Shown: positions 8,679-35,220 of the stretch, one piece after another
How positions within the stretch are numbered: position 1 is the first letter of the stretch
How the letters are laid out: each line of letters starts with the position of its first letter
NCBI GenBank assembly: GCA_944322955.1
Contig: CALUQQ010000009.1
Span: 1 to 36,897, forward strand
DNA: 36,897 nucleotides
Reading direction: 5' to 3'
Origin: Candidatus Gastranaerophilales bacterium
GTDB lineage: Bacteria > Cyanobacteriota > Vampirovibrionia > Gastranaerophilales > Gastranaerophilaceae
Made by a program: the position numbers and the translations under genes
Notes under the pieces: model-generated
Seen by the model: only the letters and a program-made list of their open reading frames with translations
Told to the model about the DNA's origin: nothing
Databases searched by the model: none

Positions 8679-8842
8679 TAATTCACTCATTTATATAATC
8701 ATTTTAACGTTAAATTTAAAAAAATCAGTTTTTTTAATGTTTAATTAATATTTTTACGGTAAATTTATATTATTGCTGCATAACAAAAATTAAGGTAGCA
8801 AAAAATATTTTGGAGAAGTTTTCATACAAAAAAGGAGAAACA

Positions 8843-9238
8843 ATGCAAATATCACCAATAAATCATGCACAACCCGCATTTAGAGGTAAATTCAAATATT
8901 CAATAGAACTTGAACAATATATCCATACCCTCGACCCTATTGAATTTAAACTCTTTCGTAAAAATCTTGACCTGATGCAGCAAGTTAATGACGGAAAAGA
9001 ATATTTATTAAAAAAAGAAAACCAACAGGGTAAATATATTACTATTACAAGCCGAAAATTATTAGAAAACGGACAAAAAATCATGAATAGCTCTGAGCAG
9101 CATTCCGACATAAAAATAATGTTTGATAAATTATTCGACAGATACAACCCAAACAGAATTGCAGAAGAGCTGAATGAACATACAAAATTATTTAAAATTA
9201 AAAAGAATTTTTTGGATGATTTAAGGAATACGAAATAG
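8843..9238 (+). CDS. Small unknown protein with N-terminal Phe tag
   Basis: A 131-residue protein, rich in Lys, Asn and Glu, mostly helical, with no signal peptide or membrane segment. The ATG at 8843 is chosen over one at 8810 because AAGGAG sits six bases before it and because the N-terminus then reads MQISPINHAQPAFRGKFKYS. That is a short polar leader ending in PAFRG, matching the tag seen in four other proteins of this window. I do not recognise a function. It appears to be a single-gene unit. Confidence 0.7.
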   Translation: MQISPINHAQPAFRGKFKYSIELEQYIHTLDPIEFKLFRKNLDLMQQVNDGKEYLLKKENQQGKYITITSRKLLENGQKIMNSSEQHSDIKIMFDKLFDRYNPNRIAEELNEHTKLFKIKKNFLDDLRNTK

Positions 9239-24086: not shown

Positions 24087-24545
24087 TTAAGCTTTGCTGT
24101 CAGCGAGCTTACCGAAGGTCTTACTCATCTCGCCAATTCCGGAAATAAATACAAACACAGCGGTGATTCCGCCGGCAATACCGGAAAATTTAGCGAATGC
24201 TTTACTGTCAAACACAGGTTTCAGCCATTTTGCGACTTTAAGATTTTTACCCCAGTTAATAATACTTTCTTTATAATTTTTAGCATTAGCAAACATCTTA
24301 CTCCAAAGAGATTTTGTCTTTTTACCGACATCTGCAGCTTCTCTAATAGCCTTTGTTGTTTCACCTGACAGCTGAACGACATCGCCGACTTTGCCTAATT
24401 TGAAACGTTTAAATGCATTAATACCGTATTTAGCACCGCCTACAGTAGCACCTGCACCGACACCGACTTCAGTAGCAGTAACGCGGTTTTCATCACGTTT
24501 TTCATTATTAGAGGTAAAGGATATTTTGTTAACACACAATGACAT
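24087..24545 (-). CDS. Small hydrophobic protein with N-terminal Phe tag
   Basis: A 152-residue protein starting MSLCVNKISFTSNNEK. The tag KISFTS is followed by a basic, Gly/Ala-rich body and one hydrophobic segment near the C-terminus (FSGIAGGITAVFVFISGIG). I chose ATG 24545, one base after the upstream stop, because it places the tag at the N-terminus as in the related genes. A GTG at 24581 is possible but has no ribosome site, whereas AGGAGG lies 15 bases before 24545 and coupling is likely. Function unknown; it pairs with the next gene upstream. Confidence 0.65.
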   Translation of the reverse strand: MSLCVNKISFTSNNEKRDENRVTATEVGVGAGATVGGAKYGINAFKRFKLGKVGDVVQLSGETTKAIREAADVGKKTKSLWSKMFANAKNYKESIINWGKNLKVAKWLKPVFDSKAFAKFSGIAGGITAVFVFISGIGEMSKTFGKLADSKA

Positions 24546-24546
24546 A

Positions 24547-25227
24547 CTAATCTTTTGTAACCTCCTGTAATGCGCTAACACCGCCGGTAACGCCGCCGCT
24601 TACCGCGAAAAGATTTGATGTTCCTTTTTCAAGATTATCGGCTGTTGCCCATTTTGCAACTTGTTCTTTTAATTGTGCACCTTTTGCAACAGCGGATTTA
24701 TAATATTCATTTTCTTTTATGCCTGCGCACAAATTGCTTAACTTTTGAGAAAATTTTGTATCTTTATATTTGTTGTTTAAACCGGTTAAAAACTCGTTTG
24801 TTTTTACACCCAGCTTGGAATTTTTTAACTCAGCCAAAAGTTCCTGAGATTTTGAGAAAATATTTTTTACGAATTTTTTCTCACCAAGAGCCTTAATACG
24901 TCTTACACCGGGTCTGATAATTTTTGAGATAACCCCCTGAGTACCGTATTTCAGACCTGCAAATCCAAGAGCTGCACCCAAACCTATTGTAGCAAGTTTA
25001 CCAACAGCACGAATCGGTTTCGGCACTTCAGTATTTTCGACCACCGCATTTATTTCTTCCAGCTGCTTTTCAAGCGCTGACTTATCATTTTCATACGCTT
25101 CTTTTGAATAATATTCATCTGACGGCATATCATCGACCACTTCATAATCAACATCTTTAACTTCGCCGTATTTCGGATAATAAGAACCAAATGCAGGTCT
25201 GAAATTTACTGATTGTACACTTAACAT
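24547..25227 (-). CDS. Hydrophobic-segment protein with N-terminal Phe tag
   Basis: A 226-residue protein starting MLSVQSVNFRPAFGSYYPKY, carrying the VNF/PAFGS tag. Then come an acidic Tyr-rich stretch (YEVVDDMPSDEYYSKEAYE), a Gly/Ala-rich hydrophobic pair of segments (residues about 75-105), a long basic helical region, and a final Gly-rich segment NLFAVSGGVTGGVSAL. No known domain. GGAG precedes the ATG. It is one base from the next tagged gene, and the pair probably acts together, perhaps at a membrane. Confidence 0.7.
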   Translation of the reverse strand: MLSVQSVNFRPAFGSYYPKYGEVKDVDYEVVDDMPSDEYYSKEAYENDKSALEKQLEEINAVVENTEVPKPIRAVGKLATIGLGAALGFAGLKYGTQGVISKIIRPGVRRIKALGEKKFVKNIFSKSQELLAELKNSKLGVKTNEFLTGLNNKYKDTKFSQKLSNLCAGIKENEYYKSAVAKGAQLKEQVAKWATADNLEKGTSNLFAVSGGVTGGVSALQEVTKD

Positions 25228-28406: not shown

Positions 28407-29552
28407 TTGAATATTAAAAAGAACGAATTGACAAAAATTCAAATAAATGAGATAAAAAAGGATTTGCCGGACTTAAAGAACATAACCGAGTCAAAAGCTG
28501 TGACAATAAGCAAATGGCTTGGCGAATGGATAAAAGAAGACTTAGCATCGGGCCAGATCAACGAAAATGATTTGCTCCCTTCCAAAGCAGATTTTGCCTA
28601 TATGTTCGGCGTGAGTCTGGGGACTATGCAAAACGCACTCAGATATTTGGAAGACAATGGTTTTGTACAATCCAAACAATGTATAGGAACTCTTGTCAAA
28701 TCTTCGGACAAACAAAATCCCGCAATGCGTAAATTGACATCAAAACGTGAGGTTGCAATAGAAAATATTAAAAAATATATTTTAAAATCAGGCTTTATGC
28801 CAGGTGACAATCTGCCGTCATCCTGTATTATTGCACAAAAAGCCGGTTGTTCGCCTAATACGGCAAGACTTGCGCTGGAATATCTTTGTAATCGCGGAAT
28901 TTTAACTCATAAATTTAAAAATTCCAAAGAAACCGGCTGGATCCTGAACAAAAATGATTTTGAAATCACTGATAAAAATTCAAACGAAACTCTTGTCGAC
29001 AAAATTCAAAATGACTTAAAAGAATATATTAAAAACAATCTCCAAACAGGTGACAAAATTCCGGCACATGCAGAACTTTCAGAAAAATTCAAAGTCAGTA
29101 TAAAAACACTTCATGATGCTTTGAAACTGCTTATTCAAGAAGGAATACTGCTAGCAAGACGCGGACGTTACGGAACCATTGTTGTTAAAATGCCGGATGA
29201 AATGACCGTTGAACAACGCTATGAAACATCTATATTTGCGCCGGCAAAAGACACTGCTTTTTACTATTATGAAAAAACACAAAACAATATAAAAAAAATG
29301 ATTGCAGAGAATTACTCGGTTGGCATGAAGCTGCCATCCATAGCAGAGCTTTCAAAACAAATGGACTTAAGCCCGAATACAATAAGAAAAGCCTTCCATA
29401 ATCTTGCTAAAGAGGGCTATTTGATATTTTCACGCGGCCGCTACGGCGGAACTTTTGTTATTGATATTCCGGAAACCGACGAACACGCTTTCAAATGGCT
29501 TGCTGTCAACCCGAAATACGCTGAGGTTATTCATCCTGGTCCGCTTATATAA
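28407..29552 (+). CDS. Regulator built of four GntR-type winged helices
   Basis: A 381-residue protein with four successive GntR-like winged-helix units and no recognisable effector domain. They lie at residues about 33-97 ([20 protein letters not shown]), 116-180 ([20 protein letters not shown]), 196-261 ([20 protein letters not shown]) and 289-353 ([20 protein letters not shown]). Each has the G-x-x-LPS start, the recognition helix and, in units 3 and 4, the wing RRGRYG/SRGRYGG. Normal GntR proteins have one such unit plus an FCD, UTRA or aminotransferase domain. Unit 4 fits the consensus best. The start is TTG 28407, with GGATGG upstream. Its 3' end overlaps panD (convergent) by eight bases. 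Confidence 0.85.
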
Positions 29553-29908: not shown

Positions 29909-29937
29909 ATTATATAACAGACAAAAAAGCGGTGCAA
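29909..29937 (-). promoter_or_regulatory. panD promoter
   Basis: On the minus strand TTGCAC (29937-29932) and TATAAT (29914-29909) are separated by 17 bases. The -35 is part of the downstream arm of the GH13 gene's terminator hairpin. Confidence 0.75.
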
Positions 29938-29952
29938 GTTTTTACCTGCACC
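29923..29952 (-). terminator. Terminator of the GH13 operon
   Basis: On the minus strand GGTGCA (29952-29947) pairs with TGCACC (29936-29931) around a ten-base loop, then GC and six T. It lies just past the GH13 gene stop and ahead of panD. Confidence 0.75.
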
Positions 29953-29973: not shown

Positions 29974-31695
29974 TTAATGCTGTTTAAAAATCTTTTTAGA
30001 ATAATTTTCTATAAAAGGTGTATCAATTTCAAACACATGAATTCTTGCAGGGCCCAAATCGACATGCAACACACCGGAATCTGCCTGAATTATACTTTCA
30101 TCACCATAAGACGGAAGGAGATTTTCCAATTTCTGGTCTGCTTTTAATGTTGGTACTTTTATTGTGCCTGATGAATTTCTATCAATATTTTTATTGGCGA
30201 CAACAAGAATCGTTTTGCCTTTATAATGGCGTGCATAAGCAATAATTTGATCGTTTTCGTCACCTTTTTTATCCAGTTCTATAAATGAACCTTTATTAAC
30301 GACATCAGAATATTTATCTTTAAGTTTGAAACATTCTGTCAAAAATTCGCCTATTTCAGGATTTTTTCCGCCCGGTTTTCTTGAAAGATTAAATATATCG
30401 AGTTTGCCGTGATGGACAATCATAGTATTGCATTCGGTTGAAGTTTCCGGATTATACTTGTCTTCATAAGGGTAGGCGTAATAATCACCGGTTTGAAAGC
30501 CGTCAACAATATAAGGATTCAACATCGGCAAAGTTGCCTGAAGCCCGCTTGTCAGGTTGCAATATTCTGTTTTACCATGATACATCGGCGAAATATCATC
30601 ATGAGTCGCAAAAGAACCAATTAACGATTTTCCTTTATCAAGGCGGTTTGACATTTCCAGCTGATCTTCAACATATTTGACAAAATCAGTTGCTGTCGGC
30701 ATTTCATGGAAGATATGATACTGACCGTAAATCATATCAAAGCCTGCTCTGAGGGAATCTTCCGGCCTGTCATAAGGCATGTTGGCCTGAGGGGAAGCGT
30801 CTTCATAAGTATAAGTTTCTGCAAGCCAGCCGAATTCAGGATCAAGCTTTCTTGAATACGGAATAATTATATCCCAGAATTCAACCGGTTTAGCGCGTGC
30901 GACATCGGCTCTAATACCATCAATTCCCATATCAACGCAAAAATCTATATACTGTTTATGAAGTTCCAAAAGTTTCGGATTAAGTGTGCGCTTACCTTCA
31001 TCTTCCCACGGCTGGAACATTCTTATATCTGTCCAGCCCTGAGGAATTTTTGCAAGGCCGTCGCGCTCTTTTGCCATCAATTCAGGTCTTTCCAAAAACA
31101 TATCATATGATGCGCAGCTGGGCAAATCCAACATAACTCTAATTCCGCGTTTGTGACATTCATCGACAAAAGCCTTAAATTGTTCCCTGTCAGAGCGCGG
31201 ATCATTTTTATCAATTAAAACCGGATCTATTGCAAGCAGATCTTTCGGAGAGTATATCGAACCTGCAGTACCCATAGCTTTCATTTTACCGGGAGGATGT
31301 ATTGGAAGTATATGAAGTGTATTGAACCCTTGAGCTTTTACTTCATCCAATCTGTCAATAGCATTCAAAAATGTACCGTTTTGCTCATCAGCATCTATGT
31401 ATTCATTACCGTTCAAATCCTGAGCGTTAAAAATTCTGGGTACAATTGCAAGAATTTTAGCCTCGTTATTTCTTATAAGAGTTCTGAAATCATTTTTATA
31501 AGGTTTATTTTCGGATGTTTTAGCCGGTTCTGTTTTTATTACTAAAGGCGCGTTAGCAGCAGCCGTTGTTTTTAGAAAACTTTCCAAAAGGTTTCCTGAT
31601 TTGGGAAATTCGTAGGATCTGTCTGCCTGTTTTAATTCCGGTTTTGACTGATAAAAGCTGATTTTTTGTGTTAATAAATTTGTAGAACTAATCAT
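29974..31695 (-). CDS. GH13 (alpha-amylase superfamily) enzyme with N-terminal Phe tag
   Basis: A 573-residue protein starting MISSTNLLTQKISFYQSK, with no signal peptide, a Pro/Lys linker to about residue 75, a GH13 TIM barrel and a C-terminal beta domain. Region II GIDGIRADVARA gives nucleophile Asp264, GWLAETYTYED the acid/base Glu293, and SFATHDD the His365-Asp366 pair, so the triad is intact. Region I reads LDLPSCASYD in place of the usual DxVxNH, somewhat like GlgE-type maltosyltransferases. The substrate is therefore open: intracellular alpha-glucan, trehalose or maltose-phosphate chemistry. It overlaps the preceding 832-residue gene by eight bases; GGAGG precedes the start. Confidence 0.85.
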   Translation of the reverse strand: MISSTNLLTQKISFYQSKPELKQADRSYEFPKSGNLLESFLKTTAAANAPLVIKTEPAKTSENKPYKNDFRTLIRNNEAKILAIVPRIFNAQDLNGNEYIDADEQNGTFLNAIDRLDEVKAQGFNTLHILPIHPPGKMKAMGTAGSIYSPKDLLAIDPVLIDKNDPRSDREQFKAFVDECHKRGIRVMLDLPSCASYDMFLERPELMAKERDGLAKIPQGWTDIRMFQPWEDEGKRTLNPKLLELHKQYIDFCVDMGIDGIRADVARAKPVEFWDIIIPYSRKLDPEFGWLAETYTYEDASPQANMPYDRPEDSLRAGFDMIYGQYHIFHEMPTATDFVKYVEDQLEMSNRLDKGKSLIGSFATHDDISPMYHGKTEYCNLTSGLQATLPMLNPYIVDGFQTGDYYAYPYEDKYNPETSTECNTMIVHHGKLDIFNLSRKPGGKNPEIGEFLTECFKLKDKYSDVVNKGSFIELDKKGDENDQIIAYARHYKGKTILVVANKNIDRNSSGTIKVPTLKADQKLENLLPSYGDESIIQADSGVLHVDLGPARIHVFEIDTPFIENYSKKIFKQH

Positions 31696-34186
31696 TTTTC
31701 TGTCCTCCCGGTAATTTCATTTTTCCAAAGAAAAACTGCGACAAAACAGTTACACCCAAAAGTCCTGCTCCGAATCCGCCGAACATTTTAAGCCATTTTC
31801 TGGTATTATAGATAGATTTTGTTGTCATATTCAGCATCTGATCCGGCGCAAGCCCTACGAGAAGGAATTGTCTGTAAGATTTCGTATTTTTATTTATTGC
31901 ACCAGTTGTATGGTGAGGTTTAAAGAAGTATTCGGCATTGCCGATTTCATTTATAAAAGTTCTTCTGTATTCAGCCAATTCATCAACCAGTGCAGATCCG
32001 GAATTTGAAACAATATCTACGGTATGCGGGTGCATTTTATTTTCATAAAGTAATTTCATAATTTCATGGAAGAACATTTTATCCTGCGGGATATCAACCT
32101 TGCCACCCGGGACATTTTCGCCGAGAAATTTATATTCCACTTTGCCGGCAACGGATTTTATCTGATTTTTATCATCTGAATTCAGTTTTGGATTGCGTAA
32201 TTCAAAGAATTTTGTTATGTAATCGGATGTTGTACCGCTTATTGAAAGTTTTTTTGCAAATTCAACTATTTCCTCTTTAACCGCTTTAGGCATACCCGAA
32301 TGCAATGCCGCAATATATTCATCGGAAATCTTTCCTGCATCGGCAATTCGTTTATAAAAATCAAGAGTATTTAATAATCTATATAGCGAACTTCTTATTC
32401 CAAGCACTCTATTAGCGCCGAAATCTTTTTGAACATTTTTCAAAGAACCAAAATTACCGTTAATACGGTTAACAGTATTCGGCATACTCAGACCTTTTTC
32501 CTGCAAAACATTGGGGAAACGCTCAAATACACTATTTACCGCATTAATATAATTTTCTGACATTGCCGGAGATCTGTCAAAAACTTTAATCTTTTCAACT
32601 ATTGCTCTGACAAGTGCGTCATATTCAGTATCAGATGCAACAATTTTTTCAATCTTATTACGCAGCAATTCGCCGGTCAATTTTCTGTCAAACCGCGTTT
32701 CAGCTATTTCTTTTTGAGAAATATTGAACAATTTCGGCAAAGCATGCGTAAAATCATTCCATGCATTAGCAAGAACAGTTTGAGGAGCAGCAGCAGCTTT
32801 TAAATAAATATATTCATCCAATACAGCGTTACGAGCTTTAAATTCAGTCAGAACATTTGCCGTTGAACGTAATGTTTCAACCAAAGAATCCGACAATTTT
32901 GATGAAGGTTTTATAGCTTTTGCAATAGGATTATCCGCCATTTTTAAATTAAAAAGCCTGTCTATAACGCGTCTTTCATCAACTTTACCAAAATCAATTG
33001 AAGAATTATACGAACGAACATTTCTTCTAATTTTTGCACCTACGACACCGAGCAATTTTTTCACATCAGTTTCTGACAACTCTTTATTCAAAAAATCATC
33101 TTTCAATAAATTCTGCAGCGAATCTGTATCCGGCAAAAATCTGTCAGCCTGAGCCGGAGTAACCAAAGTTTCAAGAGCTTTACGGGTATTTGCGGTAATA
33201 TTTTCCAGTGTCATGTAATCAACATGATATTTTTTATTATTAAGACCTAAAATATCATCCAAATCATCGCTTATGGCCTGTGCCGTGACACCGTCAAAAC
33301 CTTTTGTCAAATTGGCTTTAATTTTTTTAACCAAATCAGAATTTAATTTTTTATCTTTATTCTCGGCAATAAACTCCTCAAGCTCATCTAAAGCGGCAGT
33401 ATCTTTAAATTTTACAGATGCATTATTCAAATCCAAAAGCATATTATCAGCTTTTTTAGCTCTATGCTTCCCTATTAAATTAGTAATCGGTTTTTCGCAC
33501 GCATTACAAATTAAGGCGCTTAAAACAGGGGTAGCAAAACCAGCCGTCCACATCCACATAGTATTATTTTGAATTGCAGTTTTTTTCATCTTTTCCTGAA
33601 TAAAGTCGCGGCGGTTGTTCATATCTTTCGGGACGCCCATCCAGTCACCGATTTTGTTAATTTTCTGATCGCTGAATAAAGACCAGGCCAAATATTGAGG
33701 ATCCTGGAAGAATAATTTTTCCCGGCCAAAACTGTCCTCATACTTTTGTCTTATATTAAACCCATGAACCAACTGAGCCGGCCATTGAAGTGCTATTTTA
33801 GGCCAAATAGACATTGCTGCAAAAAACGACGCAAGTCCCACAAACTCCATTGCTTTTGCAAGAGGAGCCTGTTTTCTTGTCATAAGATAACCTGCTATCA
33901 TAAGCCCGCCGAGTTTCATGCCTATATCATTAACTTTTCCTGCCTCATAATCATTAGCTTTACCCCTTGCTGCTTTTACGAAAGATTTTGTATCATAAGC
34001 AATATTTTTAGCAACAGCAGCCGGAGCGCTCAGAATACCTCTATTTATCAAATGACCTTTTGACGGCAAAGGCTTTATAAAAGTTCTGTTCGAAAGTACA
34101 TATTCAATATCAAGGTTACGATCCTTTTTATCGGGCGGAACCTGCGGCATATTATTAAGATATGTTTGAATTAAATTCGGTCGCAT
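31688..34186 (-). CDS. Unknown 832-residue membrane-associated protein
   Basis: A large protein with no domain I recognise. The N-terminus MRPNLIQTYLNNMPQVPPDK is polar. Hydrophobic segments lie near residues 90-105, 112-135 and 205-225 (with CNACEKP after the last), and one at the C-terminus (FGGFGAGLLGVTVLSQFFFGKM). The 500 residues between are basic, helical and rich in Asn and Lys. The shape suggests membrane anchoring at both ends and a long soluble part. It starts two bases after the 343-residue gene and overlaps the GH13 gene. It is co-transcribed and probably functionally linked to both, which is inference. Confidence 0.75.
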   Translation of the reverse strand: MRPNLIQTYLNNMPQVPPDKKDRNLDIEYVLSNRTFIKPLPSKGHLINRGILSAPAAVAKNIAYDTKSFVKAARGKANDYEAGKVNDIGMKLGGLMIAGYLMTRKQAPLAKAMEFVGLASFFAAMSIWPKIALQWPAQLVHGFNIRQKYEDSFGREKLFFQDPQYLAWSLFSDQKINKIGDWMGVPKDMNNRRDFIQEKMKKTAIQNNTMWMWTAGFATPVLSALICNACEKPITNLIGKHRAKKADNMLLDLNNASVKFKDTAALDELEEFIAENKDKKLNSDLVKKIKANLTKGFDGVTAQAISDDLDDILGLNNKKYHVDYMTLENITANTRKALETLVTPAQADRFLPDTDSLQNLLKDDFLNKELSETDVKKLLGVVGAKIRRNVRSYNSSIDFGKVDERRVIDRLFNLKMADNPIAKAIKPSSKLSDSLVETLRSTANVLTEFKARNAVLDEYIYLKAAAAPQTVLANAWNDFTHALPKLFNISQKEIAETRFDRKLTGELLRNKIEKIVASDTEYDALVRAIVEKIKVFDRSPAMSENYINAVNSVFERFPNVLQEKGLSMPNTVNRINGNFGSLKNVQKDFGANRVLGIRSSLYRLLNTLDFYKRIADAGKISDEYIAALHSGMPKAVKEEIVEFAKKLSISGTTSDYITKFFELRNPKLNSDDKNQIKSVAGKVEYKFLGENVPGGKVDIPQDKMFFHEIMKLLYENKMHPHTVDIVSNSGSALVDELAEYRRTFINEIGNAEYFFKPHHTTGAINKNTKSYRQFLLVGLAPDQMLNMTTKSIYNTRKWLKMFGGFGAGLLGVTVLSQFFFGKMKLPGGQKND

Positions 34187-34188
34187 AA

Positions 34189-35220
34189 CTAGTTCACCAC
34201 GTACTTTCTGTCTTTATCTATGACATCTTTTGGAGTTTTTTCAGAAGCTTTTTTGACTGATACTGCATTCAACACTCCGAGTACCGTTGAAAGTGCAGCT
34301 GTTCCTATCATAAATTTACCGGCGTATTTTGACCAGCCCGTTGCACCCGACGGCCCGTTATAAAACTCTTTTGCACATTTTATAGCCGTATTTTTAAACA
34401 CTTTTAATGAATGCTTAAATTTTCCGAATTTCCAGAATTTTAATGTGGCTACATTAAAATAATCCTGCCACGAATTCTGGAATGCATAAGCAACACCTGC
34501 CGCTGCCCACAAATATGATGACAATGTTTTTGCCATATCTGTCTTGGTGGCTATTTTCTTTATAACCGGTTTCATTTCCTGATCCGAATCATTCAGATTT
34601 TCGCCGTATCCCAATTTTTTTGCAATATTGTCATAATATTCATTTCTCTTTTCACCCTTTGCCTCTGACTTATATAATAAATCCCAGCGCGAAAACTCCT
34701 TGCTCTCAAAAACTTTATGATACTCAATACTTGTGATATCAGTATCATCAACACTATCCGGCAATTCGTAAATAAATTTTGCATAAGGAATTTCAACATC
34801 AACTCCGGTAAGCCATTTAACAGGAGCTGTCACCAACGGTTTTGTAGCGGCTTTCAATATCCCGTAAAACAATACGCCCAAAGCCATTTTACGGCCTACG
34901 GCGCCTGCTTTTGAACGTGCAATCGGTTCAAAAAATTTATTCGCAGAATTAAAAACGGACATCATCATCAAACTGCCTATAACATAAGGAATTGAACCCA
35001 TTGTTAAAAATTCATAGAAATTCGCGTTCTTATCACCCTTCAAACCTTTTGCAGTATAAAGCGAAAGCGCATTCGTAAATTTGTCATACGTAATCAAAGC
35101 TCTGTTTTTAAAATTATTTTTTAACAAAGTATCGCAATCATAAGGCAGCTCCTTTTTTTTCGCCTTTTTATCGTCTGTAAAATTTACTCTGTTATTGAAA
35201 TTACTTACCGGTAATATCAT
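34189..35220 (-). CDS. Unknown 343-residue membrane protein with N-terminal Phe tag
   Basis: A protein starting MILPVSNFNNRVNFTDDKKAKK (RVNFTD tag). Four hydrophobic segments lie near residues 70-90, 100-120, 225-245 and 300-325 (MIGTAALSTVLGVLNAVSVKK). Between them are polar, basic and acidic stretches (LTGVDVEIPYAKF). No known family. GGAG precedes the start. It heads the three-gene unit with the 832-residue protein and the GH13 enzyme; the two unknown proteins have similar paired Gly/Ala-rich membrane segments. A 93-base gap separates it from uppP. Confidence 0.72.
   Translation of the reverse strand: MILPVSNFNNRVNFTDDKKAKKKELPYDCDTLLKNNFKNRALITYDKFTNALSLYTAKGLKGDKNANFYEFLTMGSIPYVIGSLMMMSVFNSANKFFEPIARSKAGAVGRKMALGVLFYGILKAATKPLVTAPVKWLTGVDVEIPYAKFIYELPDSVDDTDITSIEYHKVFESKEFSRWDLLYKSEAKGEKRNEYYDNIAKKLGYGENLNDSDQEMKPVIKKIATKTDMAKTLSSYLWAAAGVAYAFQNSWQDYFNVATLKFWKFGKFKHSLKVFKNTAIKCAKEFYNGPSGATGWSKYAGKFMIGTAALSTVLGVLNAVSVKKASEKTPKDVIDKDRKYVVN

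Follow-up and report, generated by a model that had tools for sequence, protein, structure and literature searches.

A lineage-specific operon of Gastranaerophilales combines two predicted membrane proteins of a new family with a GH13 enzyme

Why should two predicted membrane proteins without a recognised domain be encoded in one operon with a GH13 enzyme? The question is raised by a stretch of 36,897 nucleotides (the window) from the 1.5 Mb genome, in 138 contigs (G000), of a member of Gastranaerophilales, an order of poorly studied gut relatives of Cyanobacteria. As the initial annotation described, three genes are packed head to tail on the minus strand: gene A (34189..35220), an open reading frame for a predicted helical membrane protein of 343 aa, lies 2 bases from gene B (31688..34186; 832 aa), which overlaps by 8 bases with gene C (29974..31695), for a GH13 enzyme of 573 aa that was recognised through Pfam and lacks a signal peptide. 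Ninety-three non-coding bases separate A from the upstream uppP, the gene for undecaprenyl-diphosphate phosphatase, and the unit is closed, again as annotated, by a good intrinsic terminator 3' of C (29931..29952, minus strand) with a 9-bp stem, a T run and a fold z of -3.2. No description of A-B-C was found in the literature searched. On the plus strand, the window also encodes a 381-aa protein (28407-29552) with four consecutive GntR-type winged-helix matches, in which no effector domain was found.

The initial annotation proposed a comparison of gene order in relatives and held that genes lying apart in most of them would speak against a common unit. Among 80 loci, which were fetched by name, the order A-B-C is kept in 71 and the other nine contradict nothing; in eight the contig stops 0-775 bases past the last gene seen, and in the ninth (L139, by position apparently genome G029) C is present in a genome search and had been missed by the start-codon rule of the ORF caller. 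Across the 80 loci the A-B gap is most often 1 base and the B-C overlap usually 8 or 4 bases, and the flanking genes beyond A-B-C vary from family to family. B was found in 48 and A in 47 of 59 related genomes, almost the same ones as carry operon-type C, and A, B and C are jointly absent from ten genomes, the absence of A and B having been rechecked by profile search. When 291 genomes were sampled from the phylum, B was found in 133, all within Gastranaerophilales, and in neither the five sister-family genomes nor the other phylum members. A-B-C is inherited and lost as a block, and its arrangement is far beyond chance. That C is functionally unconnected to A and B, with no more than a transcript in common, is improbable given the invariant order throughout Gastranaerophilales, the loss as a block and a peptide common to B and C that is discussed below. 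One locus, L098 (G014:C90), holds a second, diverged A-B pair on a contig that stops before any C gene is visible.

The lack of a recognised domain in A and B was borne out, since neither protein belongs to a family in Pfam, NCBIfam, PHROG or PADLOC, where scattered matches concerned one or two members only (no Pfam match is common to the A orthologues), and fold searches against the PDB gave nothing below E 0.08. Structure prediction, also suggested with the initial annotation, yielded fair AlphaFold models of A and B (pLDDT 79 and 83) that match no solved fold. We also considered and rejected a defence system, as PADLOC has no match for either protein. Comparison of profiles with hhalign revealed that A and B are homologous over the N-terminal ~200 residues (97.6%, E 3.4e-12, 15% identity). 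B can be described as an A-like protein with a conserved membrane core (residues ~60-255, homologous to A), followed by a variable helical insert of ~550 residues ahead of a last, C-terminal hydrophobic helix. Hydropathy indicates three or four putative membrane helices per protein, and it is on hydropathy and predicted helices that the membrane association claimed initially stands. Given modest hydropathy peaks and an ambiguous topology, either side of the membrane is possible for the large region of B. Judged by sequence, A and B are sister proteins of a new, predicted membrane protein family found only in Gastranaerophilales.

Two homologous proteins of similar topology call to mind heterodimeric permeases, and strong conservation is limited to the membrane cores of A and B, as might be expected if they formed a heteromeric malto-oligosaccharide transporter or channel whose incoming sugar is trimmed or transglycosylated by C, together with a further GH13-type protein, D. 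However, A and B resemble no transporter in sequence or fold, their transmembrane segments are few and weak, and the large variable region of B would be unusual in a permease; we consider such a transporter unlikely. A role in assembling or decorating the cell envelope, with C making or trimming an envelope-linked glucan and not a storage or food glucan, would suit membrane proteins with an undecaprenyl-diphosphate phosphatase gene upstream in the window, but this upstream neighbour differs among genomes and C has no signal peptide, leaving an envelope role quite improbable.

C is a GH13 family member by sequence, with alpha-glucan activity predicted; it matches PF00128 of Pfam at 24.8 bits (cut-off 22) and PDB profiles with E-values down to 1e-24. 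The triad, called intact in the initial annotation, is invariant in 42 orthologous sequences and consists of the predicted nucleophile D264 (30904..30906, in GIRADVAR), the acid/base E293 (30817..30819, in WLAETY) and the transition-state stabiliser D366 (30598..30600, in FATHDD), all on the minus strand. The best PDB matches, in which the barrel regions are conserved, are the Thermotoga maritima maltosyltransferase (1gju) and two alpha-amylases (4gkl and 3dhu), followed by GlgE; PADLOC gave only a weak match to a GlgB-type entry. Region I of C, DLPSCA, departs from the usual DxxxxNH form, as does that of 1gju (DFIPRTA). Identity to 1gju, 4gkl and 3dhu is low, however, and C differs from them in its N-terminal tail, which bears a docking-like peptide, and in having membrane proteins as gene partners.

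Homology to GlgE, the maltose-1-phosphate maltosyltransferase (3zss, 4u2y), is detectable in C, with RxDxxxxKPxxFW around the nucleophile and LAE[TA] at the acid/base, but GlgE is the longer protein and is matched over part of its length only, and the Pfam GLGE_C score of 18.5 bits is under the cut-off of 27. The residues that we take to form the phosphate pocket of GlgE, Lys264 (of the HRKG motif) and Asn395 in Streptomyces numbering, align to Met141 and to Val265, the residue after the nucleophile, in C. Since neither position is conserved, GlgE activity of C is unlikely. The NCBIfam equivalog for trehalose synthase (TreS) is likewise matched under its cut-off (30.8 bits against 678). In agreement with the initial annotation, no hydrophobic segment of the signal-peptide or transmembrane kind was found in C, whereas a paralogue encoded elsewhere in the genome, C', mostly 37-45% identical to C, does start in a signal-peptide-like manner; in several genomes the gene next to that of C' looks as if it encodes a sugar-binding component of a transport system.

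The N-termini of the operon products were examined for short conserved peptides. In Gastranaerophilales, a class of conserved N-terminal hxF.[GAS] motifs, the Phe tag, is represented in A by MILPVSNFNNRVNFTDD (35170..35220, minus strand), which is predicted to be disordered; the Phe is found in 91-99% of A orthologues, that is, in 91% by the strict motif F[KTSQRNDG][GASN] and in 99% by a loose one. The initial annotation assigned this tag to both A and C, and the assignment to A stands. In C the strict motif occurs in 8% of orthologues, and proteins of the same genus have KVNSYQ, KVNTYH or KINLHQ where C reads KISFYQ, so the Phe in C looks like a chance residue and the tag was ruled out as a link between A and C. 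In 400 kb samples of each of two genomes, a loose regular expression for the tag was not enriched at N-termini and a stricter one was enriched about twofold (5.6-6.4% vs 2.8-2.9%, p = 0.014 and 0.003); the sequence patterns indicate a real tag that is only modestly separable by pattern alone. Phe-tag-like starts were also seen elsewhere in the window, in two overlapping minus-strand genes (24087-25227; 164 and 226 aa) with Gly-rich hydrophobic stretches, the 226-aa product having no Pfam match above cut-off, and in a 142-aa plus-strand protein (8810-9238) that begins MQISPINHAQPAFRGKF.

A different peptide is common to B and C. Residues 5-10 of B, LIQTYL (34157..34174, minus strand), form a predicted helix in a disordered N-terminus, and residues 36-41 of C, LLESFL (31573..31590, minus strand), match the same L[IL]xx[YF]L pattern. 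Counted in a relaxed form (a hydrophobic pair, two residues, Y or F, a hydrophobic residue), the peptide is found in 78/97 B and 72/89 C orthologues, where shuffling gave means of 1.3 and 4.2 (~80% vs 1-5%); the sequences within each set are mutually related, so that these are non-independent events, and the pattern was picked after viewing them, so that the shuffle test speaks for a conserved and not a predicted peptide. The strict form is absent from ~20% of B and C sequences. A peptide of this class occurs in 1 of 98 A sequences, and among 2,491 ORFs from all the fetched DNA the start-anchored peptide is nearly confined to B and C. An 862-aa membrane protein with an ABC1-type kinase domain (L109:3242-5830, G010) has a B-like start, MTNLISDYVNK; it was dismissed as a third carrier because its relatives are without the peptide.

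The Phe tag of A recurs in the product of a further gene, D, a GH13-type protein of ~1,350 residues (~1,250-1,450 aa when full-length), in which the motif is present in 13 of 13 proteins. D was found in 37 of the 40 genomes with A-B-C and in none of the ten without (Fisher p = 3e-8, counting genomes without phylogeny correction), and it adjoins A-B-C in nine genomes of four families; it was not found in G038 and G054, two fairly complete A-B-C genomes. In the source genome, D encodes 1,406 aa with the tag VSFNGY on a contig other than that of the window (G000:C101; L216:5762-9982). With a strict pattern, the motifs of GH13 regions II, III and IV (WRIDAAK, [AG]E[FL]TD and GNHDKPR) are all present in three of ten full-length D proteins, one or two of them in five and none in two; some D proteins are thus likely to have the catalytic triad.

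Taken together, the data suggest that A-B-C, a conserved operon specific to this lineage, encodes a membrane-associated complex for alpha-glucan processing, a reading to which we give a probability of about 0.45. A and B, as sister membrane proteins, would form a platform or scaffold to which cytoplasmic GH13 enzymes are brought for work on alpha-glucan, with C acting at this platform. As the short helical peptide of B recurs in the disordered N-terminal tail of C, both proteins may bind one and the same site on a partner, perhaps A, and the larger D, tagged like A, could work with A-B-C. This reading retains the membrane-tethered alpha-glucan machine of the initial annotation, for which the invariant gene set, the block inheritance and the partner D argue, the membrane and the glucan being predictions. 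A bolder version, in which an undescribed membrane-bound glucan machine of one order combines a new heteromeric family with two private peptide codes (the Phe tag for A and D, L[IL]xx[YF]L for B and C), is possible but doubtful.

GH13-type proteins with membrane partners are found in other systems, and the likeness to them is one of analogy only. In the SLC3/SLC7 amino-acid transporters of animals, a GH13-fold protein is paired with membrane proteins, as C is here, but the SLC3 heavy chains are no longer catalytic, while the triad of C is intact. The Sus-type starch utilisation systems of Bacteroidota similarly combine a GH13 enzyme with membrane partners; in contrast, A and B match no known family and C has no export signal. 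The four-gene module, with two membrane proteins of the new family and two GH13-type proteins, could be a main alpha-glucan route of Gastranaerophilales, and, with its tagged and untagged partners known from a single system, A-B-C-D also offers a concrete handle on the unexplained N-terminal tags of the lineage. Gastranaerophilales have been predicted from their genomes to use starch and glycogen (PMC4040986, PMC3787301).

The initial annotation had also raised a compartment for glycogen-like storage, for which A and B would be the shell or a granule scaffold. The GH13 content fits this idea, as does the presence of the glycogen synthase GlgA in most genomes, but GlgA is not above cut-off in four genomes with A-B-C (G039, G041, G046 and G049, three of family f7 and one of f5; completeness is 78-82% for G039 and G049 and 99% for G041 and G046), and it is present in nine of the ten genomes without A-B-C. 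GlgA and A-B-C vary independently, which disfavours a role in glycogen storage; A-B-C is separate from GlgA-type glycogen synthesis. Furthermore, A and B match no shell protein among the known families searched, nor any other known family. Storage was dropped as the leading idea on the GlgA distribution, and we regard such a scaffold as very improbable. Phosphorylase and MalQ profiles were uninformative on linkage to A-B-C; among 48 genomes, a full-length glycogen phosphorylase above cut-off is encoded only in G021 (G021:C5:6276-8696).
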